The position numbers and the translations under genes are program-made. From positions 186,001 through 250,000 of the forward strand of contig NZ_CP076024.1 in the NCBI RefSeq assembly GCF_022788635.1: 64,000 nucleotides of DNA, read 5' to 3'. Under the pieces are notes generated by a model. That model saw only the letters and a list, made by a program, of their open reading frames with translations, had not been told where the DNA came from and ran no database searches. Source of the DNA: Methylobacter sp. S3L5C (GTDB lineage Bacteria; Pseudomonadota; Gammaproteobacteria; Methylococcales; Methylomonadaceae). Numbering within the stretch: position 1 is the stretch's first letter; the number at the start of each line of letters is the position of its first letter. This document shows, one piece after another, positions 10,156 through 32,646 of the stretch.

Positions 10156-10254
10156 GCAATAAAAAACCCGCCAAGCCAGATAACTTGCGGGTTTGTGTAA
10201 TGCTTTGCACTTCACTGAATGCCTAACTGGTGCCGATGGCCTGTCTTGAATTGC
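10156..10254 (-). other. candidate attL: decayed tRNA-Leu 3' end plus terminator
   Basis: This stretch repeats, in the same order and orientation, sequence found at the 3' end of the intact tRNA-Leu at 34985. A 22-base block (10156-10177), a 17-base block (acttgcgggtttgtgta) and tggtgccgatggcc (10228-10241, the CCA end and acceptor strand) are all identical. Beyond them TTGAA of the T-loop is kept but the rest has decayed. This is the arrangement left when an element enters a tRNA 3' end: the intact gene stays on the integrase side and a fragment marks the far side. Spacing between the blocks differs by several bases, so it is not a perfect duplication. Confidence 0.55.
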
Positions 10255-10301
10255 CACTACAAGCCGCGATAACAAAGGAGGCAAAAAACAAATATTAAAA
10301 C

Positions 10302-10321
10302 CTACTGTAAAAGCTACTGTA
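10302..10321. repeat. paired ctactgta motif near left end (integrase arm-like)
   Basis: Two copies of (g)ctactgta lie head to tail with a short A-rich spacer. The reverse complement, tacagtagcttttacagtag, closely matches the motif pairs at 25759 and in the 34811 cluster. Similar repeats at both ends of an integrating element are often arm-type sites for its integrase; that role here is inferred from position only. Confidence 0.4.
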
Positions 10322-13300
10322 TAAAACATTTGTGGCTATGCTTTTTGCTTTAAAAAGTCATCATTCCAGTTAATTAGTCATTCAAAGGCCCGACCTTTGA
10401 AGATTCGTTATTTTGCCTTATTCCAGTCATTTCCACAAACGCTCGTTACTCTTTATATATAGTGCGTTGATGTTTCCATTAAATAGCTTATTCATTCTGC
10501 ATAGGAAAAACTAACCCCGTCTAATGATAATCGCTTATCTAATCTGGATACCGACTAACCAAGACCGTTAAGCGCCTTGGCTTATTGATCGTGGTGAATG
10601 CTTCTCTGATCTGGGTACCAACTGACCAAGACCGTTAAACGCCTTGGCTTATTGGTCATGGTGAATGCTTCTCTAGTATCGGTGCCCAGTGAAGAACCGG
10701 TTCCTTGCTCTGGATATCGACTGGCCAAGACTGTTAAGCATCCTGATTTATCGGTCATGGTGAATGCTTCTTTGGTATCGGTGCCAAGTGAAGAACCGGC
10801 TCCTTGCTCTGGATATCGACTAACCAAGATCGTTAAGCGCCTTGGCTTATTGATCGTGGTGAATGCTTCCATGACATTACCGCCAAATAAAGATATTGCT
10901 TCAGTGAATAGCCGGGCCTGATCTGGATACCAACTGACCAAGACCGTTAAACGCCTTGGCTTATTGGTCATGGTGAATGCTTCTCTGGTATCGGTGCCCA
11001 GTGAAGAACCGGTTCCTTACTCTGGATATCGACTGACCAAGACCGCTAAACGCCTTGGCTTATTGATCGTGTTGAATGCTTCTCTGATCTGGGTACCAGC
11101 TCTGGCCAAGATCGTTAAACGCCTTGGCTTATTGATCATGGTGAATGCTTCTCTGATCTGGGTACCAGCTCTGGCCAAGACTGTTAAGCGCGCCGGCTTA
11201 TTGATCGTGGTGAACGCTTCTCTGATCTGGATACCGACTAACCAAGATCGTTAAGCGCCTTGGCTTATTGGTCATGGTGAATGCTTCTTTGGTATCGGTG
11301 CCAAGTGAAGAAACGGCTCCTTGCTCTGGATATCGACTAACCAAGATCGTTAAGCGCCTTGGCTTATTGATCGTGGTGAATGCTTCCAAGGTATTACCGC
11401 CAAATAAAGATATTGCTTCAGTGAATAGCCGGGCCTGATCCGGATACAGACTAACCAAGACCGTTAAGCGCCTTGGCTTATTGATCGTGGTGAATGCTTC
11501 TCTGATCTGGGTACCAGCTCTGGCCAAGACTGTTAAGCGCGCCGGCTTATTGATCGTGGTGAACGCTTCTCTGATCTGGATACCGACTAACCAAGATCGT
11601 TAAGCGCCTTGGCTTATTGGTCATGGTGAATGCTTCTTTGGTATCGGTGCCAAGTGAAGAAACGGCTCCTTGCTCTGGATATCGACTAACCAAGATCGTT
11701 AAGCGCCTTGGCTTATTGATCGTGGTGAATGCTTCCAAGGTATTACCGCCAAATAAAGATATTGCTTCAGTGAATAGCCGGGCCTGATCCGGATACAGAC
11801 TAACCAAGACCGCTAAACGCCTTGGCTTATTGATCGTGGTGAATGCTTCTCTGATCTGGGTACCAGCTCTGGCCAAGACTGTTAAGCGCGCCGGCTTATT
11901 GATTGTGGTAAATGCTTCCCTGGTATCGGTGCCCAGTGAAGAACCGGTTCCTTACTCTGGATATTGACTAACCAAGACCGCTAAACGCCTTGGCTTATTG
12001 ATCATGGTGAATGCTTCTCTGATCTGGGTACCAGCTCTGGCCAAGACTGTTAAGCGCGCCGGCTTATTGATCGTGGTGAATGCTTCCAAGGTATTACCGC
12101 CAAATAAAGATATTGCTTCAGTGAATAGCCGGGCCTGATCTGGATACCAACTGACCAAGATCGTTAAGCACCCCGGCTTATTGATCGTGGTGAATGCTTC
12201 CCTGGTATCGGTACCAGCTCTGGCCAAGATCGTTAAGCGCCATGGCTTATTGATCGTGGTGAATGCTTCTAAGGAATTACCGCCAAATAAAGATATTGCT
12301 TCAGTGAATAGCCGGGCCTGATCCGGATACAGACTAACCAAGACCGTTAAGCGCCTTGGCTTATTGGTCATGGTGAATGCTTCTCTAGTATCGGTGCCCA
12401 GTGAAGAACCGGTTCCTTACTCTGGATATTGACTGACTAAGACCGCTAAACGCCTTGGCTTATTGATCGTGTTGAATGCTTCTTTGGTATCGGTGCCAAG
12501 TGAAGAAACGGCTCCTTGCTCTGGATATCGACTAACCAAGATCGTTAAGCGCCTTGGCTTATTGATCGTGGTGAACGCTTCTCTGATCTGGATATCGACT
12601 GGCCAAGACTGTTAAGCATCCTGATTTATCGGTCATGGTAAATGCTTCTTTGGTATCGGTGCCAAGTGAAGAAACGGCTCCTTGCTCTGGATACAGACTA
12701 ACCAAGACCGTTAAGCGCCTTGGCTTATTGGTCATGGTGAATGCTTCTCTGGTATCGGTGCCCAGTGAAGAACCGGTTCCTTACTCTGGATATCGACTGA
12801 CCAAGACCGCTAAACGCCTTGGCTTATTGATCATGGTGAATGCTTCTTTGGTATCGGTGCCAAGTGAAGAAACGGCTCCTTGCTCTGGATATCGACTAAC
12901 CAAGATCGTTAAGCGCCTTGGCTTATTGATCGTGGTGAATGCTTCTCTGATCTGGGTACCAGCTCTGGCCAAGATCGTTAAACGCCTTGGCTTATTGATC
13001 GTGGTGAATGCTTCCCTGGTATCGGTGCCCAGTGAAGAACCGGTTCCTTACTCTGGATATTGACTGACCAAGACCGCTAAACGCCTTGGCTTATTGATCG
13101 TGGTGAATGCTTCTAAGGAATTACCGCCAAATAAAGATATTGCTTCAGTGAATAGCCGGGGCTGATCCGGATATCGACTGGCCAAGACTGTTAAGCGCCT
13201 TGGCTTATTGATCGTGGTAAATGCTTCTCTGATATCGGTACCAAGTGAAGAACCGGTTCCTTACTCTGGATATTGACTGACCAAGACCGCTAAACGCCTT

Positions 13301-16146
13301 GGCTTATTGATCATGGTGAATGCTTCTCTGATCTGGATACCGACTAACCAAGATCGTTAAGCGCCTTGGCTTATTGATCGTGGTAAATGCTTCTCTGATC
13401 TGGGTACCAGCTCTGGCCAAGATCGTTAAGCGCCATGGCTTATTGATCGTGGCGAATGCTTCCAAGGTATTACCGCCAAATAAAGATATTGCTTCAGTGA
13501 ATAGCCGGGCCTGATCCGGATACAGACTAACCAAGACCGTTAAGCGCCTTGGCTTATTGATCATGGTGAATGCTTCTCTGATCTGGGTACCAGCTCTGGC
13601 CAAGACTGTTAAGCGCGCCGGCTTATTGATCGTGGTAAATGCTTCCCTGGTATCGGTGCCCAGTGAAGAACCGGTTCCTTACTCTGGATATTGACTGACC
13701 AAGACCGCTAAACGCCTTGGCTTATTGATCATGGTGAACGCTTATCTGATCTGGGTGCCAGCTCTGGCCAAGATCGTTAAGCGCCATGGCTTATTGATCG
13801 TGGTGAATGCTTCTAAGGAATTACCGCCAAATAAAGATATTGCTTCAGTGAATAGCCGGGGCTGATCCGGATATCGTCTGGCCAAGACTGTTAAACACCT
13901 TGGCTTATCGGTCATGGTAAATGCTTCTCTGATATCGGTACCAAGTGAAGAACCGGTTCCTTACTCTGGATATTGACTGACCAAGACCGCTAAACGCCTT
14001 GGCTTATTGATCATGGTGAATGCTTCTCTGATCTGGGTACCAGCTCTGGCCAAGACCGTTAAGCGCCTTGGCTTATTGGTCATGGTGAATGCTTCTCTAG
14101 TATCGGTGCCCAGTGAAGAACCGGTTCCTTACTCTGGATATTGACTGACTAAGACCGCTAAACGCCTTGGCTTATTGATCGTGTTGAATGCTTCTTTGGT
14201 ATCGGTGCCAAGTGAAGAAACGGCTCCTTGCTCTGGATATCGACTAACCAAGATCGTTAAGCGCCTTGGCTTATTGATCGTGGTGAATGCTTCCAAGGTA
14301 TTACCGCCAAATAAAGATATTGCTTCAGTGAATAGCCGGGCCTGATCCGGATACAGACTAACCAAGACCGTTAAGCGCCTTGGCTTATTGATCATGGTGA
14401 ATGCTTCTCTGATCTGGGTACCAGCTCTGGCCAAGACTGTTAAGCGCGCCGGCTTATTGATCGTGGTGAATGCTTCCCTGGTATCGGTGCCCAGTGAAGA
14501 ACCGGTTCCTTACTCTGGATATTGACTGACCAAGACCGCTAAACGCCTTGGCTTATTGATCGTGGTGAATGCTTCTAAGGAATTACCGCCAAATAAAGAT
14601 ATTGCTTCAGTGAATAGCCGGGGCTGATCCGGATATCGACTGGCCAAGACTGTTAAGCGCCTTGGCTTATTGATCGTGGTGAATGCTTCTCTGATATCGG
14701 TACCAAGTGAAGAACCGGTTCCTTACTCTGGATATTGACTGACCAAGACCGCTAAACGCCTTGGCTTATTGATCATGGTGAATGCTTCTCTGATCTGGAT
14801 ACCGACTAACCAAGATCGTTAAGCGCCTTGGCTTATTGATCGTGGTAAATGCTTCTCTGATCTGGGTACCAGCTCTGGCCAAGATCGTTAAGCGCCATGG
14901 CTTATTGATCGTGGCGAATGCTTCCAAGGTATTACCGCCAAATAAAGATATTGCTTCAGTGAATAGCCGGGCCTGATCCGGATACAGACTAACCAAGACC
15001 GTTAAGCGCCTTGGCTTATTGATCATGGTGAATGCTTCTCTGATCTGGGTACCAGCTCTGGCCAAGACTGTTAAGCGCGCCGGCTTATTGATCGTGGTAA
15101 ATGCTTCCCTGGTATCGGTGCCCAGTGAAGAACCGGTTCCTTACTCTGGATATTGACTGACCAAGACCGCTAAACGCCTTGGCTTATTGATCATGGTGAA
15201 CGCTTATCTGATCTGGGTGCCAGCTCTGGCCAAGATCGTTAAGCGCCATGGCTTATCGGTCATGGTAAATGCTTCTCTGATATCGGTACCAAGTGAAGAA
15301 CCGGTTCCTTACTCTGGATATTGACTGACCAAGACCGCTAAACGCCTTGGCTTATTGATCATGGTGAATGCTTCTCTGATCTGGGTACCAGCTCTGGCCA
15401 AGACCGTTAAGCGCCTTGGCTTATTGGTCATGGTGAATGCTTCTCTAGTATCGGTGCCCAGTGAAGAACCGGTTCCTTACTCTGGATATTGACTGACTAA
15501 GACCGCTAAACGCCTTGGCTTATTGATCGTGTTGAATGCTTCTTTGGTATCGGTGCCAAGTGAAGAAACGGCTCCTTGCTCTGGATATCGACTAACCAAG
15601 ATCGTTAAGCGCCTTGGCTTATTGATCGTGGTGAATGCTTCCAAGGTATTACCGCCAAATAAAGATATTGCTTCAGTGAATAGCCGGGCCTGATCCGGAT
15701 ACAGACTAACCAAGACCGTTAAGCGCCTTGGCTTATTGGTCATGGTGAATGCTTCTCTGGTATCGGTGCCCAGTGAAGAACCGGTTCCTTACTCTGGATA
15801 TTGACTGACCAAGACCGCTAAACGCCTTGGCTTATTGATCATGGTGAATGCTTCTCTGATCTGGGTACCAGCTCTGGCCAAGATCGTTAAGCGCCATGGC
15901 TTATTGATCGTGGCGAATGCTTCTAAGGAATTACCGCCAAATAAAGATATTGCTTCAGTGAATAGCCGGGCCTGATCCGGATACAGACTAACCAAGACCG
16001 TTAAGCGCCTTGGCTTATTGATCGTGGTGAATGCTTCTCTGATCTGGGTACCAGCTCTGGCCAAGACTGTTAAGCGCGCCGGCTTATTGATCGTGGTAAA
16101 TGCTTCCCTGGTATCGGTGCCCAGTGAAGAACCGGTTCCTTACTCC

Positions 16147-18825
16147 GGATCCAGACTAACCAAGACCGTTAAGCGCCTTGGCTTATTGATCGTGGTGAAT
16201 GCTTCTCTGATCTGGGTACCAACTGACCAAGACCGTTAAACACCTTGGCTTATTGATCATGGTGAATGCTTCTCTGATCTGGGTACCAGCTCTGGCCAAG
16301 ACTGTTAAGCGCGCCGGCTTATTGATCGTGGTAAATGCTTCCCTGGTATCGGTGCCCAGTGAAGAACCGGTTCCTTACTCTGGATATTGACTGACCAAGA
16401 CCGCTAAACGCCTTGGCTTATTGATCATGGTGAACGCTTATCTGATCTGGGTGCCAGCTCTGGCCAAGATCGTTAAGCGCCATGGCTTATTGATCGTGGT
16501 GAATGCTTCTAAGGAATTACCGCCAAATAAAGATATTGCTTCAGTGAATAGCCGGGGCTGATCCGGATATCGACTGGCCAAGACTGTTAAGCGCCTTGGC
16601 TTATTGATCGTGGTGAATGCTTCTCTGATATCGGTACCAAGTGAAGAACCGGTTCCTTACTCTGGATATTGACTGACCAAGACCGCTAAACGCCTTGGCT
16701 TATTGATCATGGTGAATGCTTCTCTGATCTGGATACCGACTAACCAAGATCGTTAAGCGCCTTGGCTTATTGATCGTGGTAAATGCTTCTCTGATCTGGG
16801 TACCAGCTCTGGCCAAGATCGTTAAGCGCCATGGCTTATTGATCGTGGCGAATGCTTCCAAGGTATTACCGCCAAATAAAGATATTGCTTCAGTGAATAG
16901 CCGGGCCTGATCCGGATACAGACTAACCAAGACCGTTAAGCGCCTTGGCTTATTGATCATGGTGAATGCTTCTCTGATCTGGGTACCAGCTCTGGCCAAG
17001 ACTGTTAAGCGCGCCGGCTTATTGATCGTGGTGAATGCTTCCCTGGTATCGGTGCCCAGTGAAGAACCGGTTCCTTACTCTGGATATTGACTGACCAAGA
17101 CCGCTAAACGCCTTGGCTTATTGATCGTGGTGAATGCTTCTAAGGAATTACCGCCAAATAAAGATATTGCTTCAGTGAATAGCCGGGGCTGATCCGGATA
17201 TCGACTGGCCAAGACTGTTAAGCGCCTTGGCTTATTGATCGTGGTGAATGCTTCTCTGATATCGGTACCAAGTGAAGAACCGGTTCCTTACTCTGGATAT
17301 TGACTGACCAAGACCGCTAAACGCCTTGGCTTATTGATCATGGTGAATGCTTCTCTGATCTGGATACCGACTAACCAAGATCGTTAAGCGCCTTGGCTTA
17401 TTGATCGTGGTAAATGCTTCTCTGATCTGGGTACCAGCTCTGGCCAAGATCGTTAAGCGCCATGGCTTATTGATCGTGGCGAATGCTTCCAAGGTATTAC
17501 CGCCAAATAAAGATATTGCTTCAGTGAATAGCCGGGCCTGATCCGGATACAGACTAACCAAGACCGTTAAGCGCCTTGGCTTATTGATCATGGTGAATGC
17601 TTCTCTGATCTGGGTACCAGCTCTGGCCAAGACTGTTAAGCGCGCCGGCTTATTGATCGTGGTAAATGCTTCCCTGGTATCGGTGCCCAGTGAAGAACCG
17701 GTTCCTTACTCTGGATATTGACTGACCAAGACCGCTAAACGCCTTGGCTTATTGATCATGGTGAACGCTTATCTGATCTGGGTGCCAGCTCTGGCCAAGA
17801 TCGTTAAGCGCCATGGCTTATTGATCGTGGTGAATGCTTCTAAGGAATTACCGCCAAATAAAGATATTGCTTCAGTGAATAGCCGGGGCTGATCCGGATA
17901 TCGTCTGGCCAAGACTGTTAAACACCTTGGCTTATCGGTCATGGTAAATGCTTCTCTGATATCGGTACCAAGTGAAGAACCGGTTCCTTACTCTGGATAT
18001 TGACTGACCAAGACCGCTAAACGCCTTGGCTTATTGATCATGGTGAATGCTTCTCTGATCTGGGTACCAGCTCTGGCCAAGACCGTTAAGCGCCTTGGCT
18101 TATTGGTCATGGTGAATGCTTCTCTAGTATCGGTGCCCAGTGAAGAACCGGTTCCTTACTCTGGATATTGACTGACTAAGACCGCTAAACGCCTTGGCTT
18201 ATTGATCGTGTTGAATGCTTCTTTGGTATCGGTGCCAAGTGAAGAAACGGCTCCTTGCTCTGGATATCGACTAACCAAGATCGTTAAGCGCCTTGGCTTA
18301 TTGATCGTGGTGAATGCTTCCAAGGTATTACCGCCAAATAAAGATATTGCTTCAGTGAATAGCCGGGCCTGATCCGGATACAGACTAACCAAGACCGTTA
18401 AGCGCCTTGGCTTATTGGTCATGGTGAATGCTTCTCTGGTATCGGTGCCCAGTGAAGAACCGGTTCCTTACTCTGGATATTGACTGACCAAGACCGCTAA
18501 ACGCCTTGGCTTATTGATCATGGTGAATGCTTCTCTGATCTGGGTACCAGCTCTGGCCAAGATCGTTAAGCGCCATGGCTTATTGATCGTGGCGAATGCT
18601 TCTAAGGAATTACCGCCAAATAAAGATATTGCTTCAGTGAATAGCCGGGCCTGATCCGGATACAGACTAACCAAGACCGTTAAGCGCCTTGGCTTATTGA
18701 TCGTGGTGAATGCTTCTCTGATCTGGGTACCAGCTCTGGCCAAGACTGTTAAGCGCGCCGGCTTATTGATCGTGGTAAATGCTTCCCTGGTATCGGTGCC
18801 CAGTGAAGAACCGGTTCCTTACTCC
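16147..18825. repeat. higher-order unit 1 of the array (2,679 bp)
   Basis: A private variant ggatcc inside one M spacer occurs at 16147 and again at 18826, 2,679 bases on. Neighbouring modules recur at exactly the same shift (15477/18156, 15789/18468, 16700/19379), and compared stretches looked identical base for base. This marks a block of roughly 30 modules duplicated as a unit. Confidence 0.9.
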
Positions 18826-21608
18826 GGATCCAGACTAACCAAGACCGTTAAGCGCCTTGGCTTATTGATCGTGGTGAATGCTTCTCTGATCTGGGTACCA
18901 ACTGACCAAGACCGTTAAACACCTTGGCTTATTGATCATGGTGAATGCTTCTCTGATCTGGGTACCAGCTCTGGCCAAGACTGTTAAGCGCGCCGGCTTA
19001 TTGATCGTGGTAAATGCTTCCCTGGTATCGGTGCCCAGTGAAGAACCGGTTCCTTACTCTGGATATTGACTGACCAAGACCGCTAAACGCCTTGGCTTAT
19101 TGATCATGGTGAACGCTTATCTGATCTGGGTGCCAGCTCTGGCCAAGATCGTTAAGCGCCATGGCTTATTGATCGTGGTGAATGCTTCTAAGGAATTACC
19201 GCCAAATAAAGATATTGCTTCAGTGAATAGCCGGGGCTGATCCGGATATCGACTGGCCAAGACTGTTAAGCGCCTTGGCTTATTGATCGTGGTGAATGCT
19301 TCTCTGATATCGGTACCAAGTGAAGAACCGGTTCCTTACTCTGGATATTGACTGACCAAGACCGCTAAACGCCTTGGCTTATTGATCATGGTGAATGCTT
19401 CTCTGATCTGGATACCGACTAACCAAGATCGTTAAGCGCCTTGGCTTATTGATCGTGGTAAATGCTTCTCTGATCTGGGTACCAGCTCTGGCCAAGATCG
19501 TTAAGCGCCATGGCTTATTGATCGTGGCGAATGCTTCCAAGGTATTACCGCCAAATAAAGATATTGCTTCAGTGAATAGCCGGGCCTGATCCGGATACAG
19601 ACTAACCAAGACCGTTAAGCGCCTTGGCTTATTGATCATGGTGAATGCTTCTCTGATCTGGGTACCAGCTCTGGCCAAGACTGTTAAGCGCGCCGGCTTA
19701 TTGATCGTGGTGAACGCTTCTCTGATCTGGATACCGACTAACCAAGATCGTTAAGCGCCTTGGCTTATTGGTCATGGTGAATGCTTCTTTGGTATCGGTG
19801 CCAAGTGAAGAAACGGCTCCTTGCTCTGGATATCGACTAACCAAGATCGTTAAGCGCCTTGGCTTATTGATCGTGGTGAATGCTTCTCTGATCTGGGTAC
19901 CAGCTCTGGCCAAGATCGTTAAACGCCTTGGCTTATTGATCGTGGTGAATGCTTCCCTGGTATCGGTGCCCAGTGAAGAACCGGTTCCTTACTCTGGATA
20001 TTGACTGACCAAGACCGCTAAACGCCTTGGCTTATTGATCGTGGTGAATGCTTCTAAGGAATTACCGCCAAATAAAGATATTGCTTCAGTGAATAGCCGG
20101 GGCTGATCCGGATATCGACTGGCCAAGACTGTTAAGCGCCTTGGCTTATTGATCGTGGTGAATGCTTCTCTGATATCGGTACCAAGTGAAGAACCGGTTC
20201 CTTACTCTGGATATTGACTGACCAAGACCGCTAAACGCCTTGGCTTATTGATCATGGTGAATGCTTCTCTGATCTGGATACCGACTAACCAAGATCGTTA
20301 AGCGCCTTGGCTTATTGATCGTGGTAAATGCTTCTCTGATCTGGGTACCAGCTCTGGCCAAGATCGTTAAGCGCCATGGCTTATTGATCGTGGCGAATGC
20401 TTCCAAGGTATTACCGCCAAATAAAGATATTGCTTCAGTGAATAGCCGGGCCTGATCCGGATACAGACTAACCAAGACCGTTAAGCGCCTTGGCTTATTG
20501 ATCATGGTGAATGCTTCTCTGATCTGGGTACCAGCTCTGGCCAAGACTGTTAAGCGCGCCGGCTTATTGATCGTGGTAAATGCTTCCCTGGTATCGGTGC
20601 CCAGTGAAGAACCGGTTCCTTACTCTGGATATTGACTGACCAAGACCGCTAAACGCCTTGGCTTATTGATCATGGTGAACGCTTATCTGATCTGGGTGCC
20701 AGCTCTGGCCAAGATCGTTAAGCGCCATGGCTTATTGATCGTGGTGAATGCTTCTAAGGAATTACCGCCAAATAAAGATATTGCTTCAGTGAATAGCCGG
20801 GGCTGATCCGGATATCGTCTGGCCAAGACTGTTAAACGCCTTGGCTTATTGATCATGGTGAATGCTTCTCTGATCTGGGTACCAGCTCTGGCCAAGACTG
20901 TTAAGCGCGCCGGCTTATTGATCGTGGTGAACGCTTCTCTGATCTGGATACCGACTAACCAAGATCGTTAAGCGCCTTGGCTTATTGGTCATGGTGAATG
21001 CTTCTTTGGTATCGGTGCCAAGTGAAGAAACGGCTCCTTGCTCTGGATATCGACTAACCAAGATCGTTAAGCGCCTTGGCTTATTGATCGTGGTGAATGC
21101 TTCCAAGGTATTACCGCCAAATAAAGATATTGCTTCAGTGAATAGCCGGGCCTGATCCGGATACAGACTAACCAAGACCGTTAAGCGCCTTGGCTTATTG
21201 GTCATGGTGAATGCTTCTCTGGTATCGGTGCCCAGTGAAGAACCGGTTCCTTACTCTGGATATTGACTGACCAAGACCGCTAAACGCCTTGGCTTATTGA
21301 TCATGGTGAATGCTTCTCTGATCTGGGTACCAGCTCTGGCCAAGATCGTTAAGCGCCATGGCTTATTGATCGTGGCGAATGCTTCTAAGGAATTACCGCC
21401 AAATAAAGATATTGCTTCAGTGAATAGCCGGGCCTGATCCGGATACAGACTAACCAAGACCGTTAAGCGCCTTGGCTTATTGATCGTGGTGAATGCTTCT
21501 CTGATCTGGGTACCAGCTCTGGCCAAGACTGTTAAGCGCGCCGGCTTATTGATCGTGGTAAATGCTTCCCTGGTATCGGTGCCCAGTGAAGAACCGGTTC
21601 CTTACTCC
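18826..21608. repeat. higher-order unit 2 of the array (2,783 bp)
   Basis: The same ggatcc variant recurs at 21609. Module shifts of 2,783 bases are seen at 18468/21251, 18697/21480 and 19379/22162. It differs from unit 1 by gain and loss of a few modules around 19.7-21.2 kb, while the shared modules look identical. Confidence 0.9.
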
Positions 21609-23656
21609 GGATCCAGACTAACCAAGACCGTTAAGCGCCTTGGCTTATTGATCGTGGTGAATGCTTCTCTGATCTGGGTACCAACTGACCAAGACCGTTA
21701 AACACCTTGGCTTATTGATCATGGTGAATGCTTCTCTGATCTGGGTACCAGCTCTGGCCAAGACTGTTAAGCGCGCCGGCTTATTGATCGTGGTAAATGC
21801 TTCCCTGGTATCGGTGCCCAGTGAAGAACCGGTTCCTTACTCTGGATATTGACTGACCAAGACCGCTAAACGCCTTGGCTTATTGATCATGGTGAACGCT
21901 TATCTGATCTGGGTGCCAGCTCTGGCCAAGATCGTTAAGCGCCATGGCTTATTGATCGTGGTGAATGCTTCTAAGGAATTACCGCCAAATAAAGATATTG
22001 CTTCAGTGAATAGCCGGGGCTGATCCGGATATCGACTGGCCAAGACTGTTAAGCGCCTTGGCTTATTGATCGTGGTGAATGCTTCTCTGATATCGGTACC
22101 AAGTGAAGAACCGGTTCCTTACTCTGGATATTGACTGACCAAGACCGCTAAACGCCTTGGCTTATTGATCATGGTGAATGCTTCTCTGATCTGGATACCG
22201 ACTAACCAAGATCGTTAAGCGCCTTGGCTTATTGATCGTGGTAAATGCTTCTCTGATCTGGGTACCAGCTCTGGCCAAGATCGTTAAGCGCCATGGCTTA
22301 TTGATCGTGGCGAATGCTTCCAAGGTATTACCGCCAAATAAAGATATTGCTTCAGTGAATAGCCGGGCCTGATCCGGATACAGACTAACCAAGACCGTTA
22401 AGCGCCTTGGCTTATTGATCATGGTGAATGCTTCTCTGATCTGGGTACCAGCTCTGGCCAAGACTGTTAAGCGCGCCGGCTTATTGATCGTGGTAAATGC
22501 TTCCCTGGTATCGGTGCCCAGTGAAGAACCGGTTCCTTACTCTGGATATTGACTGACCAAGACCGCTAAACGCCTTGGCTTATTGATCATGGTGAACGCT
22601 TATCTGATCTGGGTGCCAGCTCTGGCCAAGATCGTTAAGCGCCATGGCTTATTGATCGTGGTGAATGCTTCTAAGGAATTACCGCCAAATAAAGATATTG
22701 CTTCAGTGAATAGCCGGGGCTGATCCGGATATCGTCTGGCCAAGACTGTTAAACACCTTGGCTTATCGGTCATGGTAAATGCTTCTCTGATATCGGTACC
22801 AAGTGAAGAACCGGTTCCTTACTCTGGATATTGACTGACCAAGACCGCTAAACGCCTTGGCTTATTGATCATGGTGAATGCTTCTCTGATCTGGGTACCA
22901 GCTCTGGCCAAGACCGTTAAGCGCCTTGGCTTATTGGTCATGGTGAATGCTTCTCTAGTATCGGTGCCCAGTGAAGAACCGGTTCCTTACTCTGGATATT
23001 GACTGACTAAGACCGCTAAACGCCTTGGCTTATTGATCGTGTTGAATGCTTCTTTGGTATCGGTGCCAAGTGAAGAAACGGCTCCTTGCTCTGGATATCG
23101 ACTAACCAAGATCGTTAAGCGCCTTGGCTTATTGATCGTGGTGAATGCTTCCAAGGTATTACCGCCAAATAAAGATATTGCTTCAGTGAATAGCCGGGCC
23201 TGATCCGGATACAGACTAACCAAGACCGTTAAGCGCCTTGGCTTATTGGTCATGGTGAATGCTTCTCTGGTATCGGTGCCCAGTGAAGAACCGGTTCCTT
23301 ACTCTGGATATTGACTGACCAAGACCGCTAAACGCCTTGGCTTATTGATCATGGTGAATGCTTCTCTGATCTGGGTACCAGCTCTGGCCAAGATCGTTAA
23401 GCGCCATGGCTTATTGATCGTGGCGAATGCTTCTAAGGAATTACCGCCAAATAAAGATATTGCTTCAGTGAATAGCCGGGCCTGATCCGGATACAGACTA
23501 ACCAAGACCGTTAAGCGCCTTGGCTTATTGATCGTGGTGAATGCTTCTCTGATCTGGGTACCAGCTCTGGCCAAGACTGTTAAGCGCGCCGGCTTATTGA
23601 TCGTGGTAAATGCTTCCCTGGTATCGGTGCCCAGTGAAGAACCGGTTCCTTACTCC
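21609..23656. repeat. higher-order unit 3 of the array (2,048 bp)
   Basis: The ggatcc variant recurs at 23657. Shifts of 2,048 bases hold at 21251/23299, 21480/23528 and 22162/24210. Compared with unit 1 a ~630-base group of modules is missing, consistent with unequal exchange between neighbouring units. Confidence 0.9.
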
Positions 23657-25758
23657 GGATCCAGACTAACCAAGACCGTTAAGCGCCTTGGCTTATTGAT
23701 CGTGGTGAATGCTTCTCTGATCTGGGTACCAACTGACCAAGACCGTTAAACACCTTGGCTTATTGATCATGGTGAATGCTTCTCTGATCTGGGTACCAGC
23801 TCTGGCCAAGACTGTTAAGCGCGCCGGCTTATTGATCGTGGTAAATGCTTCCCTGGTATCGGTGCCCAGTGAAGAACCGGTTCCTTACTCTGGATATTGA
23901 CTGACCAAGACCGCTAAACGCCTTGGCTTATTGATCATGGTGAACGCTTATCTGATCTGGGTGCCAGCTCTGGCCAAGATCGTTAAGCGCCATGGCTTAT
24001 TGATCGTGGTGAATGCTTCTAAGGAATTACCGCCAAATAAAGATATTGCTTCAGTGAATAGCCGGGGCTGATCCGGATATCGACTGGCCAAGACTGTTAA
24101 GCGCCTTGGCTTATTGATCGTGGTGAATGCTTCTCTGATATCGGTACCAAGTGAAGAACCGGTTCCTTACTCTGGATATTGACTGACCAAGACCGCTAAA
24201 CGCCTTGGCTTATTGATCATGGTGAATGCTTCTCTGATCTGGATACCGACTAACCAAGATCGTTAAGCGCCTTGGCTTATTGATCGTGGTAAATGCTTCT
24301 CTGATCTGGGTACCAGCTCTGGCCAAGATCGTTAAGCGCCATGGCTTATTGATCGTGGCGAATGCTTCCAAGGTATTACCGCCAAATAAAGATATTGCTT
24401 CAGTGAATAGCCGGGCCTGATCCGGATACAGACTAACCAAGACCGTTAAGCGCCTTGGCTTATTGATCATGGTGAATGCTTCTCTGATCTGGGTACCAGC
24501 TCTGGCCAAGACTGTTAAGCGCGCCGGCTTATTGATCGTGGTAAATGCTTCCCTGGTATCGGTGCCCAGTGAAGAACCGGTTCCTTACTCTGGATATTGA
24601 CTGACCAAGACCGCTAAACGCCTTGGCTTATTGATCATGGTGAACGCTTATCTGATCTGGGTGCCAGCTCTGGCCAAGATCGTTAAGCGCCATGGCTTAT
24701 TGATCGTGGTGAATGCTTCTAAGGAATTACCGCCAAATAAAGATATTGCTTCAGTGAATAGCCGGGGCTGATCCGGATATCGACTGGCCAAGACTGTTAA
24801 ACACCTTGGCTTATCGGTCATGGTAAATGCTTCTCTGATCTGGGTACCAGCTCTGGCCAAGACTGTTAAGCGCGCCGGCTTATTGATCGTGGTGAACGCT
24901 TCTCTGATCTGGATACCGACTAACCAAGATCGTTAAGCGCCTTGGCTTATTGATCGTGTTGAATGCTTCTAAGGGATTACCGCCAAATAAAGATATTGCT
25001 TCAGTGAATAGCCGGGCCTGATCCGGATACAGACTAACCAAGACCGTTAAGCGCCTTGGCTTATTGATCGTGGTGAATGCTTCCAAGGTATTACCGCCAA
25101 ATAAAGATATTGCTTCAGTGAATAGCCGGGCCTGATCCGGATACAGACTAACCAAGACCGTTAAGCGCCTTGGCTTATTGATCATGGTGAATGCTTCTCT
25201 GATCTGGGTACCAGCTCTGGCCAAGACTGTTAAGCGCGCCGGCTTATTGATCGTGGTGAACGCTTCTCTGATCTGGATACCGACTAACCAAGATCGTTAA
25301 GCGCCTTGGCTTATTGGTCATGGTGAATGCTTCTTTGGTATCGGTGCCAAGTGAAGAACCGGTTCCTTACTCTGGATATTGACTGACCAAGACCGCTAAA
25401 CGCCTTGGCTTATTGATCATGGTGAACGCTTATCTGATCTGGGTACCAGCTCTGGCCAAGATCGTTAAGCGCCATGGCTTATTAATCGTGGTGAATGCTT
25501 CTAAGGAATTACCGCCAAATAAAGATATTGCTTCAGTGAATAGCCGGGCCTGATCTGGATACCAACTGACCAAGATCGTTAAGCACCCCGGCTTATTGAT
25601 CGTGGTAAATGCTTCCCTGGTATCGGTACCAAGTGAAGAGCCGGTTCCTTACTCTGGATACAGACTGGCCAAGATGCTTTAAAAAAAGCAATGACTGCCG
25701 GGATTAAATTACTATTTTTTTAAAATAAAACCGTACAAAGCAAAGACACGGCCATAAT

Positions 25759-25780
25759 TTACAGTAACTTTTACAGTAAC
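25759..25780. repeat. paired ttacagtaac motif (arm-like)
   Basis: Two copies of ttacagtaac separated by a few T residues. The same pair, with one base changed, occurs at 34811-34832 beside the integrase gene, and an inverted version at 10302. Its position just right of the array could mark an end of the replication module or an internal integrase site. Confidence 0.45.
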
Positions 25781-25924
25781 ATTTAATATTATTTATGCCA
25801 TTCCACTAAAATAAAGGCTTTCAGCTATTGTTCAATACCTGATACAGAAACCGAACTGATAAAAAGGCCGTTATTACACATTGCTGTATTTATTTGTTTG
25901 ACTTGTGCGCTGTTTTTAAGGCGT

Positions 25925-25956
25925 AAAAAATCCGGTAGGGCTTGAAGCTCTACCGG
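25925..25956 (-). terminator. intrinsic terminator, leftward
   Basis: On the minus strand the stem ccggtag / ctaccgg (25932-25956) is followed by a run of T (TTTTTTACG, 25925-25931). It closes leftward transcription of the element's operon ahead of the repeat array. Confidence 0.75.
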
Positions 25957-26071
25957 CTGTTTGCGCTGCCCTGTTGTTTCTGGTTCCGTCTAGTTCCGCC
26001 TAGTCCCTGCATTCAGACAATAAAAAATATTAGCAAGTCCCGATAATGACGGCGTACCGGAAAATTCACCT

Positions 26072-26094
26072 AAAAACCGCCTATAGGCTTTTTT
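26072..26094. terminator. palindromic terminator after the Mor-like gene
   Basis: The perfect palindrome gcctataggc (26079-26088) has A residues on its left and six T on its right, so it could end transcripts in both directions. It lies ~55 bases past the stop of the Mor-like gene. Confidence 0.6.
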
Positions 26095-26149
26095 GCTGCC
26101 TCCCTCTGGCGTGATGGCATGGCAAAAAAAGCGTTAAAAAGTCAATTAA

Positions 26150-26722
26150 TTAACGGCTAAATAACGAATTTTTAAGCGGGTTAGTGGTGGTTTTTTTTAT
26201 AATTCTGGCAATGCTGCAATCAGCCAAATAATATTTTTCAGCTACGGCTTGTTGAGTCATCCCGCTCGCATAGTCGAAACGAATATCTTTATTGCGCCGG
26301 TCAAGCCGGTTTATTGCTTGTTCGCTTGGGGTTCTTTTCGGCTTGCTGCGCTGTTTGAAAATTATGTGATTGATTTGCCGCTCGGTCAAATAATACTTGG
26401 TAGCGATAGCCGCTTGAGTCATCCCGTTAACCCAGTCTTTTAAGATTTCAGGATTGCGCGACTTAATCAGCATTAACTTACCGTTTGGGAATTGCACAAC
26501 TTCACCGCCAAATGTATGAAAGAGTATTTTTGCTGCTTTTTTGCCTATCAGGTTTTCCAGTACAGAATCATTAGACGCTTTTAAGGGAATAGCCAAGTGA
26601 CGGCCAGCATAATTGACAAACAAAGTCAGTGCCAAGTCATCGCCAATGTATTCAGCAATTTCTTGTATTCTAAGCGGCCAATTATCGCGGCCAATGCGCT
26701 GTAAAAGTTCAATGGTTAGCAT
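26150..26722 (-). CDS. Mor/C-like transcription activator with duplicated helix-turn-helix
   Basis: 190 residues. The N-terminal half (ELLQRIGRDNWPLRIQEIAE, YIGDDLALTLFVNYAGRHLA) matches the dimerisation region of the Mor family, the Mu-type middle-operon activators. The C-terminal half carries two similar helix-turn-helix segments: DWVNGMTQAAIATKYYLTER at about residue 92 and DYASGMTQQAVAEKYYLADC at about 149. Two tandem copies are unusual; Mor normally has one. It starts at ATG 26722 with GAGG seven bases upstream. It is the last gene of the leftward replication module and could activate late genes, either its own or those of a helper phage; that role is inferred. Basic tail (IIKKTTTNPLKNSLFSR). 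Confidence 0.65.
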   Translation of the reverse strand: MLTIELLQRIGRDNWPLRIQEIAEYIGDDLALTLFVNYAGRHLAIPLKASNDSVLENLIGKKAAKILFHTFGGEVVQFPNGKLMLIKSRNPEILKDWVNGMTQAAIATKYYLTERQINHIIFKQRSKPKRTPSEQAINRLDRRNKDIRFDYASGMTQQAVAEKYYLADCSIARIIKKTTTNPLKNSLFSR

Positions 26723-26903
26723 TTATACGCCTCTTGCTGGTAGGGATACATCATTATGAACCCTTACCGTAAAGCCTCCAATACACCGATGTTCATAACT
26801 GTTTGCTTGGATTTCAGGCAATAAAAAACCGCTCGGGTTGCCCTTTGCGGCTTGGTGGATCGGATAGGTTAGCGCGTCTTTTTAATGACGGCATACGGCA
26901 ACA

Positions 26904-27281
26904 TTAAAAATTAACCGGGTCGTTAAATTGCCCGGTGTTGCTACCAGAATTAACGGGTTGCTCCGGCGCTGATCTGCGCTTTTTTATATCGTAGGGGCTA
27001 AGTGAATTATTCGCGGTGATGTTTATGCCGCGCTTGGTTTCTCCGGTTGCCTTATCTATCCATTCAGACGGTTTAAGGCTGCCAACAACGGCCAGCGGGT
27101 CGCCTTTTTGTAGCTTGGCGATACGTTCGGCTATTTCAGCAAATGCCATGCCCGACACGATGGCGGGTTTTTCTTCGCCAACGTCTACGGATAAAAGAAA
27201 AGGCGTGTAGTAATTGCCGGTTTTACCTGTTTTCAGTTCGGGGGTTTTAATTAATTTACCGCTTATCAATGCATCCATCAT
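26904..27281 (-). CDS. single-stranded DNA-binding protein-like (OB fold)
   Basis: 125 residues with a single OB-fold pattern: MMDALISGKLIKTPELKTGK, then FLLSVDVGEEKPAIVSGMAF, then LQKGDPLAVVGSLKPSEWID, with NITANNSLSPYD before a low-complexity tail. This is close to short SSB proteins of phages and plasmids, which coat single strands at replication forks. The tail ends NDPVNF rather than the acidic DDDIPF tip of cellular SSB, so interaction with host repair proteins may differ. AGGA lies nine bases before ATG 27281. It sits between the Mor-like gene and the iteron array, consistent with an element-encoded replication accessory protein. Confidence 0.75.
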   Translation of the reverse strand: MMDALISGKLIKTPELKTGKTGNYYTPFLLSVDVGEEKPAIVSGMAFAEIAERIAKLQKGDPLAVVGSLKPSEWIDKATGETKRGINITANNSLSPYDIKKRRSAPEQPVNSGSNTGQFNDPVNF

Positions 27282-27320
27282 GGCGTTATTTCCTGTATTT
27301 GGTGTGGGGTTAGTTATCCA

Positions 27321-28084
27321 GAAAAACTTTGTAAGAAAAAGGTTGTGTTTGAAAGTTCAGAAGTTCAGGAATCGTCTATAAGCCTTGCCGTTACTGGGTT
27401 TAATGGCTGAACTTATCCTGAACTTGTGCTGAACTTATGCTGAACTTGTTGGCCATAAGTTCAGGATTGCATCAATAACCGTGTTTTTTTTGTCTGGTAG
27501 TGATGATACCGAAAAAACTTTGTAAGAAAAAGGTTGTGTTTGAAAGTTCAGAAGTTCAGGAATCGTCTATAAGCCTTGCCGTTACTGGGTTTAATGGCTG
27601 AACTTATCCTGAACTTGTGCTGAACTTATGCTGAACTTGTTGGCCATAAGTTCAGGATTGCATCAATAACCGTGTTTTTTTTGTCTGGTAGTGATGATAC
27701 CGAAAAAACTTTATAAGAAAAAGGTTGTGTTTGAAAGTTCAGAAGTTCAGGAATCGTCTATAAGCCTTGCCACTACTGGTTTTAATGGCTGAACTTATCC
27801 TGAACTTGTGCTGAACTTATGCTGAACTTGTGGCCCATAAGTTCAGGATTGCATCAATAACCGTGTTTTTTTTGTCTGGTAGTGATGATACCGAAAAAAC
27901 TTTGTAAGAAAAAGGTTGTGTTTGAAAGTTCAGAAGTTCAGGAATCGTCTATAAGCCTTGCCATTACTGGTTTTAATGGCTGAACTTATTCTGAACTTGT
28001 GCTGAACTTATGCTGAACTTGTGGCCAATAAGTTCAGGATTGCATCAATAACCGTGTTTTTTTTGTCTGGTAGTGATGACGCCG
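27321..28084. repeat. four tandem 191 bp repeats with gaactt iterons
   Basis: Exact period 191, measured at the c of aactt in positions 27327, 27518, 27709, 27900 and 28091. Each copy starts aactttgtaagaaaaaggtt and holds four spaced gaactt boxes (ctgaacttatcctgaacttg and gctgaacttatgctgaactt) plus a T-rich tract. Copies differ at only a few bases. No gene lies in it. Tandem iterons with an AT-rich tract beside primase genes are typical of a replication origin or of a partition or copy-control site. Confidence 0.9.
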
Positions 28085-28087
28085 AAA

Positions 28088-28231
28088 AAACTTTATAAGA
28101 AAAAGGTTGTAAATGGAGTTGCAGAGTTGCAGGAATCGCCCGAAAGCCACGGGTATCAACGGTTATAGGGCTGCAACTATCCTGCAACTTCCTGCAACTA
28201 TGCTGCAAATCCTCCCTTATAGTTGCAGGAT
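28088..28231 (+). repeat. iteron-rich inverted repeat, left copy
   Basis: 144 bases that recur in inverted orientation at 31521-31665 with about nine differences by eye. It carries spaced ctgcaact boxes (gctgcaactatcctgcaact, tcctgcaactatgctgcaa). Its start overlaps the fifth copy of the 191-base unit, and its box layout mirrors that unit with gcaact in place of gaactt, so the two repeat families share an ancestor. The two copies flank the primase/helicase operon. Confidence 0.9.
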
Positions 28232-28368
28232 TATTTTTTACCTCCTGCAACTCTGAGGCTATTCCTGCAACTATCCTGCAACTTCAAACATCATAGTTGC
28301 AGGAATTTACAGGCTTTAATCCCAGTAAATACGGGCGCTAAATATCATTCCTGCAACTCTGCAAGTTT
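28110..28368. other. candidate replication origin: gcaact iteron cluster
   Basis: At least ten copies of (c)tgcaact in both orientations lie in 260 bases directly downstream of the helicase stop, next to an AT-rich segment (28230-28242). In phage P4 the primase-helicase binds iterons in two sites, ori and crr. The presence of a second cluster at 31521 would match that two-site design. Function is inferred. Confidence 0.5.
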
Positions 28369-28370
28369 GT

Positions 28371-29819
28371 TTAGAACCTTTTTTCAGTAAAGTTTTTTTC
28401 TAAAAACATTGAGGCTTCTTGTTTTGATCGTTTAAAGCCTAAAGACTCCATTCTATTCACAAAATTATTTCGTCCTAATGGGTGTTTGTGTCCGGCATCT
28501 TGGCAATAAGTTTTATATTCTGTGTAAGCGTCAGCATACGGTTTAAAGTATATAGAACCGCGCATAGTCTCCATAAAGTCAACCTCATACATAGCCACGC
28601 TATCAGACTCTTTTATAAACTTATTTTTGAAGCTTTCGCACTCTGGCGATATAAATATATTGCGGCTTTTAATAACCCGCTCCGCGCCCTCAATAATCCA
28701 ATTCAATACGCCCGGCCTATCCAATAAAATCTTTCTGTGTAAATCCCGGTCTTGCTCATGATCTGGAATGGTTTTGTTAAACGGGATAACCAGCAAGCGC
28801 CGGTAAAATCCGTGGGTATGTTCAATATTGGCTGAATCCATCTTATTGACGTTAAATATCAGCTTGGCATAATCGGTCATCAAAAACGGCTCCCGATAAG
28901 GTAAACGCGCCTCAATAGGCTCACCACTTGCCAGTGTTTTAAACATGCCTGCATCAATCTTGGTTAGGCGTATATCCGTGCCATAATTCACAATCTTGTC
29001 TTTAATCATGGCACGGTGATAACCCTTGTCATCAGTTAGCGACTCAAGCGAATAATTACTAATATTCTCCGCACCAAGAACGCCGTTAAGCACTTCAAAA
29101 AACACTGACTTTCCATTGGCTCCGGTGCCAAACAGAAAAAACACTTTTTCCATCTTGAGACCCTTAATAAATAAATATCCCGCTACTTCCTGTAAAGTGC
29201 GCCGGGTATCCTTATCAGGTAACACGTAAGCCAGATAATCAAGAAATAGCTGATTGACGGCTTTGGGGTTATAGGTGAAATCTAATTGATGGGTTAGAAA
29301 GTCCCGATAATCGAAGCCTTTCATTTGTATGCCAGACTCACTCAATACCAGGGAACCATTTTTAAGATTAATAATCGACTGCTTGGAAAAATTGCGTTCC
29401 ACAAAAAAACCGTCTTGCTCCGCTTGCTGGAAAAGTTTTTCGACAAAGGCATAATCGCGGCATTCAATCTCGGTATAGCCCATTTTCATGGCGGCATCTT
29501 TAAGCAGTTTTTTAACCTCTGAATCTTCCAACGGAACCCAGAAAGCCCCGTTAAAAATATAAAAATATCCGGCATTATGGACAATATGCCAGTTATTCTT
29601 TTTAGCGGTTTTAATCAGGGTATCAACAATAGCTACCCTGATATATTTTTGTGCCGGTGGCTTGCCTTCGCTGTCACTTTTCCAGCCTAAGGACTCGCAA
29701 ACAACCTTTAAATCAACTTTTTCTATGTTTGATAATAGCGAGGCTATGGCCGATAATTTGAATTGTTGCGGGGTGCAAGGATTGTTGGCTGTGGCATTGA
29801 TGTTTATTATGTTACTCAT
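28371..29819 (-). CDS. P4/D5-type superfamily 3 helicase, primase C-terminal
   Basis: 482 residues. An N-terminal D5-N region (about 40-200) precedes an SF3 ATPase with Walker A LFGTGANGKS (about residue 235), Walker B-like IVNYGTDI, and sensor segment YAKLIFNVNKM. The C-terminal segment GFYRRLLVIPFNKTIPDHEQ is the usual end of P4-family phage/plasmid primase proteins. It should unwind the element's origin. P4 alpha fuses primase, helicase and origin binding; here the Toprim primase is a separate gene whose stop overlaps this ATG by four bases (ATGA), so the two are translationally coupled. Iteron sequences lie immediately downstream. Full length for the split type. Confidence 0.9.
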   Translation of the reverse strand: MSNIININATANNPCTPQQFKLSAIASLLSNIEKVDLKVVCESLGWKSDSEGKPPAQKYIRVAIVDTLIKTAKKNNWHIVHNAGYFYIFNGAFWVPLEDSEVKKLLKDAAMKMGYTEIECRDYAFVEKLFQQAEQDGFFVERNFSKQSIINLKNGSLVLSESGIQMKGFDYRDFLTHQLDFTYNPKAVNQLFLDYLAYVLPDKDTRRTLQEVAGYLFIKGLKMEKVFFLFGTGANGKSVFFEVLNGVLGAENISNYSLESLTDDKGYHRAMIKDKIVNYGTDIRLTKIDAGMFKTLASGEPIEARLPYREPFLMTDYAKLIFNVNKMDSANIEHTHGFYRRLLVIPFNKTIPDHEQDRDLHRKILLDRPGVLNWIIEGAERVIKSRNIFISPECESFKNKFIKESDSVAMYEVDFMETMRGSIYFKPYADAYTEYKTYCQDAGHKHPLGRNNFVNRMESLGFKRSKQEASMFLEKNFTEKRF

Positions 29820-30673: not shown

Positions 30674-30885
30674 GAAGCCGCCTTTAATTGAGCTGTCTCA
30701 ATCGCTGGGATAGTAACGGTCAGCACGTCTTTTAGCCGGTCAGTAAAGTAACTCAACAAAAGCGCGGAATTATCACGACTTACGCAATGTAAATCTGTTG
30801 CGGGCTGCATTAAATCAGCAATAGCAGACAAGCACGCCTGAATGGTGTTTATTTCGTCTATCTGGTCAAGGGTTAAGTGGCTCAT
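30661..30885 (-). CDS. small hypothetical protein in primase operon
   Basis: 74 residues, not recognised. MSHLTLDQIDEINTIQACLS is helical and amphipathic; CVSRDNSALLLSYFTDRL follows. It overlaps the Toprim gene by 13 bases and its own start overlaps the preceding gene's stop, which supports real translation. Its size and position resemble small accessory proteins of phage replication operons, but no function can be assigned. Confidence 0.55.
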   Translation of the reverse strand: MSHLTLDQIDEINTIQACLSAIADLMQPATDLHCVSRDNSALLLSYFTDRLKDVLTVTIPAIETAQLKAASCTH

Positions 30886-31408: not shown

Positions 31409-31520
31409 GGTATTAAATTAAGCTGGTTATTAAATGAAGCTTTGAGGCTTGTCACTTCAAGGCTTTTTTATTGTCTTTTTTTTAACGCAAGGCTGCCGAA
31501 AACACCCAATTATTTATGTA

Positions 31521-31665: not shown

Positions 31666-31674
31666 CCTGCCCTA

Positions 31675-32539: not shown

Positions 32540-32599
32540 GCTGTGCGCCTATATTCAACTAAGTTAGGGCGCATTATTAAGAAAACTCTTGCGGGTATG

Positions 32600-32631: not shown

Positions 32632-32646
32632 CGATATAATTTGAAA

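Follow-up and report, generated by a model that had tools for sequence, protein, structure and literature searches.

A 15-kb satellite array with higher-order repeats as cargo of a P4-like integrative element in a Methylobacter chromosome

Eukaryotic higher-order arrays, such as alpha satellite, are built of multi-monomer blocks and have a homogeneous centre and divergent edges; bacterial genomes are thought to be streamlined. The array described here also has its monomers in multi-monomer blocks, with a homogeneous centre and divergent edges, but it is bacterial, measures 15 kb, has no centromere, and varies in block length and offset. The element that carries it shares with P4-like phage satellites an integrase at a tRNA gene, a P4-type primase/helicase, a C4 antisense RNA, an int-alpA RNA, iterons, and a length of about 9.6 kb without the array. 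It differs from them in its 15.1 kb of satellite cargo, in a Mor-family regulator, and in that no Sid, Psu or Delta family, the P4 names for capsid sizing and late-gene hijacking, was found among the ten open reading frames (ORFs) scanned.

Subirana and Messeguer (PMC8161180) described non-coding tandem repeats of bacteria with units of 52 and 20-21 nt. These are likewise non-coding, of fixed unit length with varying sequence, species-specific and of unknown function, but they form many short arrays genome-wide, the longest named there having 37 repeats and more than 2 kb, whereas the present locus is one 15-kb array with four unit lengths and higher-order blocks in a mobile element. Assignment to these Bacillus-type satellites, which occur as several families per genome, was rejected, the units here being 67, 69, 99 and 114 bp long and found at one locus. 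The repeats of Borg archaeal elements, as described (PMC9879509), are also fast-evolving, belong to a genetic element and are rare in the host, but they are perfect, about 20 nt long, spread over the element and 43-65% genic, whereas the Methylobacter array is confined to a single locus and is apparently non-coding.

Architecture of the array

The window, which is the whole 64,000-nucleotide stretch of DNA analysed, belongs to the genome of a relative of methane-eating bacteria, assembled as one 4.8-Mb contig. Its plus strand contains, as assembled, an array of 15,137 bp.

10538..25674, plus strand: satellite array with 170 copies of a 46-bp core; units of 67, 69, 99 and 114 bp
13220..24782, plus strand: homogenised centre, the range containing every exact repeat of at least 500 bp

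Scoring of the core consensus along 10401-25800 gave 170 copies, with starts from 10559 to 25570. A preliminary description, made from the sequence, had proposed a core of about 44 bp alternating with spacers; the alternation was upheld, while the length is 46 bp. The unit lengths it listed were exact, as the start-to-start distances were 67 (20 times), 69 (55 times), 99 (56 times) and 114 bp (38 times), with no further length, and the spacers measure 21, 23, 53 and 68 bp. The 169 complete units represent 50 distinct sequence types (51 with the last core, which is spacerless), and across all of them there was not a single one-base indel. Differences at 18 of the 22 variable core positions were transitions only. 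TRF reported the array under many periods. GATC sites were dense, at 20.7 per kb (314 in all) compared with 2.7 per kb elsewhere in the window. A CRISPR array, with identical repeats and unique spacers, was ruled out, as had been argued at the outset, since 15 of the 26 spacer sequences are found more than once, and as often as 44 times.

Exact repeats of at least 500 bp account for 74% of the array, and those of at least 1,000 bp for 62%. They occur at many offsets, and the longest, of 2,598 bp, is found at 17114 and 21945; chance is not at issue, because an exact repeat of 2.6 kb is involved. The proportion of units duplicated exactly at another place in the array was 48% at 10538-12600, 82% at 12600-14600 and 91-100% from 14600 to 25000, and fell to 33% beyond 25000. 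The near-identical multi-kilobase blocks in the centre and the diverged edges noted earlier were both confirmed by these values. With its near-identical multi-unit blocks, homogenised centre and diverged edges, the array is a higher-order satellite bearing the marks of unequal exchange.

Exact repeats of 1.5-2.6 kb, which are present here, are typical sites of misassembly, and the assembler could partly have created the block structure or the length. This is most improbable, as the genome is in one contig, and the 50 unit types with differing neighbours and the blocks at many offsets are features that a simple false duplication does not give.

The host element and its genes

The array does not stand free in the chromosome: it belongs, as cargo, to a P4-like integrative element with recognisable ends, iterons and genes, and a relative has the corresponding site unoccupied.

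10228..34998: P4-like integrative element of about 24.8 kb, inserted at the 3' end of tRNA-Leu(GAG)
10156..10241: distal attachment site, a copy of the tRNA-Leu 3' end plus downstream terminator-like sequence
26150..26722, minus strand: Mor / phage late transcriptional activator family protein, 190 aa (Pfam PF08765, 8.4e-17; PHROG 836, 2.6e-25)
26904..27281, minus strand: single-strand DNA-binding protein (Pfam PF00436, 6.8e-9)
27322..28232: probable origin, with 11-bp iterons GCTGAACTTAT in four 191-bp repeats, followed by a variant whose iteron is CTGCAACTATC
28371..29819, minus strand: P4-type helicase, DUF5906 / D5 (Pfam, 9.5e-15; PHROG 864, DNA primase, 5.6e-67)
29816..30673, minus strand: Toprim primase (Pfam PF13362, 1.5e-12)
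31160..31247, minus strand: C4 antisense RNA (Rfam RF01695, 56.2 bits)
31544..31581: second iteron cluster TTGCAGGATAG
33442..33514, minus strand: int-alpA RNA (Rfam RF02996, 42.2 bits)
33539..34795, minus strand: tyrosine integrase (Pfam Arm-DNA-bind_3, 3.3e-22; Phage_integrase, 6.6e-22)
34985..35069, minus strand: tRNA-Leu(GAG), integration target (ARAGORN)

The element ends in a 14-bp repeat, TGGTGCCGATGGCC (10228-10241 = 34985-34998), beside which lie identities of 22 and 17 bp (within 10156-10199 = 34913-34956). Its insertion is shown, because a close relative (G034) has the empty site, with the order gltB - tRNA-Leu - secG. The array makes up 61% of the element, about 9.6 kb remaining without it, and has the replication module to one side and the distal attachment site to the other. 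Its nearest gene is that of the Mor-family protein, PHROG 836 being annotated as late transcriptional activator. Downstream of their helicase genes, several relatives carry short-period repeats made up of different words.

P4-like features included the tyrosine integrase adjoining a tRNA gene with a duplicated attachment site, a primase/helicase replication module (Toprim and D5 helicase ORFs) with 11-bp iterons, and C4 antisense RNA immunity (RF01695, 56.2 bits against 45). The Pfam and PHROG scan covered ten of the 12 element ORFs taken as genes (all but the small 30661-30885 and 30882-31109), and among these ten no family of capsid-size or helper-hijacking genes (sid, psu, delta) was seen, a Mor-family late activator being found instead. 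Because these families were not found, the element is filed, from its sequence, as P4-like in the integration and replication modules only.

Two of the roles initially considered for the array fared poorly. That of an origin is unlikely, because the iterons of the element lie outside the array, at 27322-28232 and 31544-31581, the latter cluster being a possible counterpart of the P4 crr site. A partition role is without support, as no par family occurs among the ten ORFs scanned.

Distribution and comparable elements

Within the order, the host's own genome was the only one of 311 to match array DNA, and there the array is confined to one locus. Stretches of it found no match in the other 100 of 101 relatives, nor in the phage, plasmid or E. 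coli collections as searched, and the exact core patterns were absent from viral contigs; such collections may omit records of the same or very near genomes. A blastn comparison (E 1e-3) over 139 other loci gave matches only in two that overlap the array itself. Among the literature matches listed (titles and abstract openings, mostly of non-subscription papers) there was no P4-like element with such an array.

A second P4-like element (L158) is present on the same chromosome, with 20-bp direct repeats 13.1 kb apart. It carries an array of 12 complete 39/40-bp units and one partial unit, plus a 276-bp duplication, at the same end as the 15-kb array, away from the integrase. The core of this smaller array was not found in viral contigs, and the sequences of the two arrays are not recognisably related. 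In a third element (L077), and in relatives L037 and L029, the distal end includes stretches of 1-2 kb with few or small ORFs, and has short low-copy repeats or shared words. At 18 other integrase loci of the family, for which 19.9 kb was fetched, no tandem repeat of more than 200 bp was judged non-coding, a single row, in L145, being taken for protein-coding on inspection only, so array amplification is not a general habit of such elements.

One-mismatch 11-mers of the array matched the distal regions of other elements no more than did first-order Markov controls. Local alignment of some 700 array bases (from 11106) with L158:5301-8660 and with L069:3534-5300 gave a score of 30 in each case, against maxima of 27 and 28, respectively, among 40 mononucleotide shuffles, and a 14-mer is common to the array and L158. 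These signs of homology between the array and the L158 and L069 stretches count as weak.

Possible roles and origin of the array

The claim that reading frames break often held for the 20 units of 67 bp, which shift the frame, and for stops, which also break it, but not for the other lengths, as 69, 99 and 114 are multiples of three. The conclusion that there is no intact repeat-protein gene was nonetheless sound: an open frame with a synonymous excess was not found, stops occur in all six frames (the longest open run being 158 codons), and those 20 units shift the frame. A Pfam search of four array ORFs gave nothing above the cut-off, and one array ORF compared with phages had no protein homologue. 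The array might be the relic of a repeat-protein gene whose frame was broken by the 67-bp units, which would suit the three unit lengths divisible by three. One plus-strand frame lacks TAA and TAG in the 69-, 99- and 114-bp units, all 75 stops being TGA, and would be open for up to 663 codons if TGA were read as an amino acid; however, an estimated three or so TAA/TAG are expected in 94 codons, so one frame of six without any is unremarkable. Synonymous changes numbered 33 of 79 in that frame (about 26 expected) and 31 of 79 in one minus-strand frame (about 25 expected), but this excess is the best of six frames, uncorrected, with shared core changes counted once per unit type. With 20 of 169 units shifting the frame, stops in 75 of the 149 in-frame units, and no Pfam match above cut-off, such a relic is very unlikely.

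Consensus folds of the units exist, with energies close to those of shuffles (mean z from -1.2 for 99-bp units to +0.6 for 69-bp units, both on the plus strand, from up to 8 sequences per unit type). Rfam gave no match within the array, and no promoter- or terminator-like sites are listed inside it. Type III toxin-antitoxin loci pair repeats of structured RNA with a neighbouring gene for an endoribonuclease toxin; this identity was rejected for the array, with no clear structure and no toxin family among the ten ORFs scanned by Pfam and PHROG. A source of repeated non-coding RNA, another role suggested early on, could arise by read-through from the rep-ssb-Mor genes, the product serving as sponge or antisense. 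The upstream genes do point into the array, no minus-strand terminator-like site is listed between the Mor gene and the array, and satellites of Bacillus coagulans are reported as transcribed (PMC8161180, PMC8625621). Against this stand the near-shuffle folding energies, the negative Rfam and site listings and, unlike type III arrays, the lack of a toxin family in the ten ORFs, and we consider this role highly improbable.

The core holds an imperfect 15-bp dyad, CCAnGAYCnnTAAGC-6-GCTTAnnGATCnTGG, with pairing at 12 of the 15 arm positions in a 145-bp stretch that was tested, a value reached by 4 of 300 mononucleotide shuffles. It was discarded as a conserved RNA stem, there being no covariation at the twelve pairs. 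As putative protein-binding sites, the 170 cores could titrate an element, helper-phage or host protein, or organise DNA, and the pairing of the arms, the spacing without one-base indels and the neighbouring gene for a Mor-family DNA-binding protein are consistent with this. We nevertheless hold it to be unlikely. Covariation is absent, and the variation at arm positions 7, 8 and 14 is similar to that of the loop. No operator was found elsewhere, because matches to the degenerate dyad without mismatch in the genome (159 forward and 81 reverse) equal those in the array alone, a result that also weakens the suggested decoy for a host DNA-binding protein. With 10.5 bp per turn of the DNA helix, spacings of 67, 69, 99 and 114 bp do not share a helical phase. 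A GATC-methylation (Dam) role was also rejected despite the 314 GATC sites: a search for the Dam-type methylase family only (PF02086) detected none in the genome but was positive in 4 of 14 control genomes, E. coli included.

Alternatively, length itself may be selected and the sequence free, the array bringing a 9.6-kb element to 24.8 kb so that a monomer or dimer fills an unmodified helper capsid. Without the array the element would be as large as small P4-like satellites, close to relatives L038 (7.1 kb) and L037 (about 9.4 kb) and to L077 (7.7 kb); no Sid, Psu or Delta family was seen in the ten ORFs; and Mu-like head genes near a Mor relative on the same chromosome mark a possible helper. 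In PMC10803314, P4 averages 10 kb and satellites filling normal capsids as concatemers are described. Yet concatemers already solve the size problem without an array, headful packaging requires no exact length, no helper is known, and the array length is not known to be constant, which makes this alternative rather unlikely.

The explanation we favour, and which is probable by a modest measure, is that the array is apparently non-coding satellite DNA, the main cargo of a P4-like phage satellite, without a needed sequence-specific task; among the roles first proposed, a selfish or neutral satellite remains the best on the sequence evidence. The array would have started with the duplication of a short unit in the element's distal end; insertions or deletions would have produced the spacer variants, and unequal recombination, possibly during replication of the element as many copies, would have amplified and homogenised blocks of 0.5-2.6 kb. 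Persistence of the array may reflect a low cost of extra length to the element, or else the length itself may be tolerated or of use in packaging. Consistent with this are the boundaries and gene set of the element and the empty site in the close relative; the restriction to one locus in 1 of 311 genomes; the edge-to-centre homogenisation and block repeats at many offsets, as unequal exchange gives; the absence of a convincing coding, folding or Rfam signal; the recurrence of a smaller array at the same end of L158; and the distal ends of L077, L037 and L029, with few or small ORFs and with short low-copy repeats or shared words. On the other side, four fixed lengths over 169 units without a one-base indel could mean that spacing is under selection, the transitions-only core positions and the imperfect dyad could fit a constrained sequence, and the 18 other integrase loci had no tandem repeat above 200 bp that was judged non-coding.

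A broader proposal, possible but doubtful, is that P4-like satellites here grow and keep element-specific distal arrays as a module that sets packaged length or sequesters a helper or rival protein, with sequence rapidly replaced by unequal exchange. If true, this would be a bacterial equivalent of the rapidly evolving satellite DNA involved in genetic conflict.

A 15-kb higher-order satellite that makes up 61% of a mobile element indicates that the dynamics of eukaryotic satellites, with amplification, a homogenised centre and decayed edges, can run in a bacterium. Such arrays may be more frequent than has been seen, if short-read assemblies lose them, as is likely. The tractable size of this array and its clear element make it a simple system in which a by-product of recombination could be distinguished from DNA kept for its length or for binding.

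Composition and organisation of the array

The satellite array (10538-25674) was built on a 46-bp core, of which a core scan recovered 170 copies within 10559-25615, each followed by a spacer of 21, 23, 53, or 68 bp only, apart from the final copy, which had no spacer in the scan. The resulting units were exactly 67 (20 copies), 69 (55), 99 (56), or 114 bp (38) in length, the four values given in the preliminary description, which was also right in proposing a recurring core, but not in its length of about 44 bp. The two longer spacers, of 53 and 68 bp, look by their sequence like variants of a single one that differ by 15 bp. The 169 complete units comprised 50 distinct sequences, and summed over the four unit types there were 88 variable columns, with 73 transition and 26 transversion pairs. 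Within the core, 18 of the 22 variable positions showed transitions only. The G+C content was about 48% in tabulated windows within the array, compared to 38-47% in the remaining ones.

Exact repeats of at least 500, 1,000, and 2,000 bp covered 74%, 62%, and 34% of the array, and the longest (2,598, 1,787, and 1,784 bp) lay at offsets of 4,831, 2,679, and 7,510 bp, respectively. In the centre (14600-25000), 91-100% of units had an exact copy elsewhere, as against 48% in the left 2 kb and 33% in the right 0.7 kb, which bears out the earlier picture of near-identical, multi-kilobase central blocks and diverging edges. The blocks recurred at many differing offsets, pointing to repeated unequal exchange or conversion rather than a single duplication.

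The host element and its insertion site

The array sits within a P4-like integrative element, which carries an int-alpA RNA, a C4 antisense RNA, genes for a primase, a helicase, SSB, and a Mor / late-activator family protein, and two iteron regions, with the array last.

Features of the element and its insertion site
10156-10199: contains 22- and 17-bp identities with sequence downstream of the tRNA
10228-10241: att copy, repeating the final 14 bp of tRNA-Leu(GAG)
27322-28232: first iteron region; within 27322-28360 there are four 191-bp repeats with GCTGAACTTAT iterons and an adjoining divergent copy with CTGCAACTATC iterons
31544-31581: second iteron region, near 31.5 kb, where the word CTGCAACTATC occurs again
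33539-34795, minus strand: integrase, beside tRNA-Leu(GAG)
34985-35069: tRNA-Leu(GAG)

Without the array the element would be about 9.6 kb, comparable to relatives of 7.1-9.4 kb; the repeat words 3' of the helicase gene vary between relatives. In a close relative (G034), gltB, tRNA-Leu(GAG), and secG are consecutive and the element is absent; its gltB start was 98% similar, the closest among 22 other genomes of the genus with a match. Not all members of the genus share this gene order, since no tRNA-Leu was seen beside gltB in the stretches examined of four other relatives.

Possible functions of the array

Stop codons were present in all six frames, and the longest open run was 158 codons, partly in keeping with the earlier remark that the frames break often. 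In the plus-strand frame that is most open in the 69-, 99-, and 114-bp units, all 75 stops were TGA and 33 of 79 changes were synonymous (about 26 expected), while one minus-strand frame gave 31 of 79 (about 25 expected). This excess was not accepted as a coding signal: it is the highest among six frames, no correction was applied, and core changes shared between unit types were counted in each of them.

RNA folding gave mean z-scores of -1.2 to +0.6. As regards protein binding, the core contains an imperfect dyad of 15 bp with a six-base loop (12 of 15 paired), equalled by 4 of 300 shuffles, and no covariation was found in it. A role as origin, one of those first suggested, is unlikely because the iterons of the element lie outside the array, at 27322-28232 and 31544-31581. 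The array has 314 GATC sites, and a profile search found no PF02086 gene in the genome, which argues against a methylation role for them. A scan of 9600-29000 returned 11 promoter-like and eight terminator-like sites, fewer than in shuffles; none was inside the array, where the DNA is repetitive, so that only a few hundred unique bases were tested.

Rarity, related elements, and proposed origin

The array sequence was found in one of 101 genomes and one of 311 genomes of the order, in each case only its own, and had no match in phage, plasmid, or E. coli records. Exact core patterns had no match in viral contigs, and a degenerate dyad pattern gave 159 forward and 81 reverse matches genome-wide, the identical numbers being obtained in the array alone. 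When compared by blastn to 139 other loci, the array matched only two, both overlapping the array itself.

The bacterial satellites described in one study (PMC8161180) are mostly short, of 52 or 20-21 nt, and scattered across the genome; the largest that it names has 37 repeats over more than 2 kb. The present array, by contrast, is a single 15-kb locus that combines four unit lengths with higher-order blocks. Borg repeats (PMC9879509) are perfect copies distributed along the element, unlike this one block within a P4-like element. Against both, such an array is new as far as these sources extend, and no comparable one was found among the open-access papers listed by the literature searches, in agreement with the preliminary description.

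Helicase relatives occurred in 21 of 237 family genomes, own included (E 1e-30), and in 14 named loci. Among 20 integrase loci compared by TRF (one, L157, just 3.4 kb long), rows above 200 bp appeared in two. In L145 this was a 273-bp repeat at the locus edge that, by inspection, reads as protein-coding. The other, L158, is a second P4-like element of the same chromosome, with an integrase and primase resembling those described here; direct repeats of 20 bp stand at positions 5666 and 18758. Its distal end, away from the integrase and corresponding to the end that holds the main array, carries 12 complete 39/40-bp units and a partial 13th (L158:6976-7486), and a 276-bp direct duplication with copies 880 bp apart. 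The 39/40-bp repeat is probably non-coding because its unit length varies by one base, although it is overlapped by ORFs in different frames, 96, 125, and 132 aa long. Outside the element, L158:1291-1661 holds three 125-bp tandem copies, near an ORF that is presumably sugar-nucleotide dehydrogenase-like.

A third element of this chromosome, L077, has weak helicase and integrase matches; its ends are marked by repeats of 46 bp at tRNA-Asn (6203 and 13910). Near its distal end are short words that it shares with L037 and L029, elements of relatives whose distal ends aligned with a score of 41 (at most 30 in ten shuffles); the distal stretches of all three have small ORFs only. Many short, low-copy repeat words, in part shared among these elements, occur at L077:7200-7400, L037:12840-14200, and L029:3310-4924, for example CATTGTGGACGCATGA at 43-bp spacing, and may represent a mosaic of iteron-like sites. 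As the L158 array and these words show, a distal end prone to repeats is found again in some of these elements. The array described here had no clear sequence relation to these other distal ends, apart from weak alignment scores to the contrary.

Mor relatives are encoded at two further places in the chromosome, near 3.63 (L166) and 3.44 Mb (L167), with Mu-like head and portal genes beside the one at L166, the only one scanned; these places may encode helpers. Since satellites packaged as concatemers in unmodified capsids are known (PMC10803314), a length role for the array is possible, but not needed. The best-supported explanation is that the array is a product of unequal recombination without sequence-specific function, an absence that we infer: such recombination would have amplified and homogenised a short unit that lay distally in a phage satellite.
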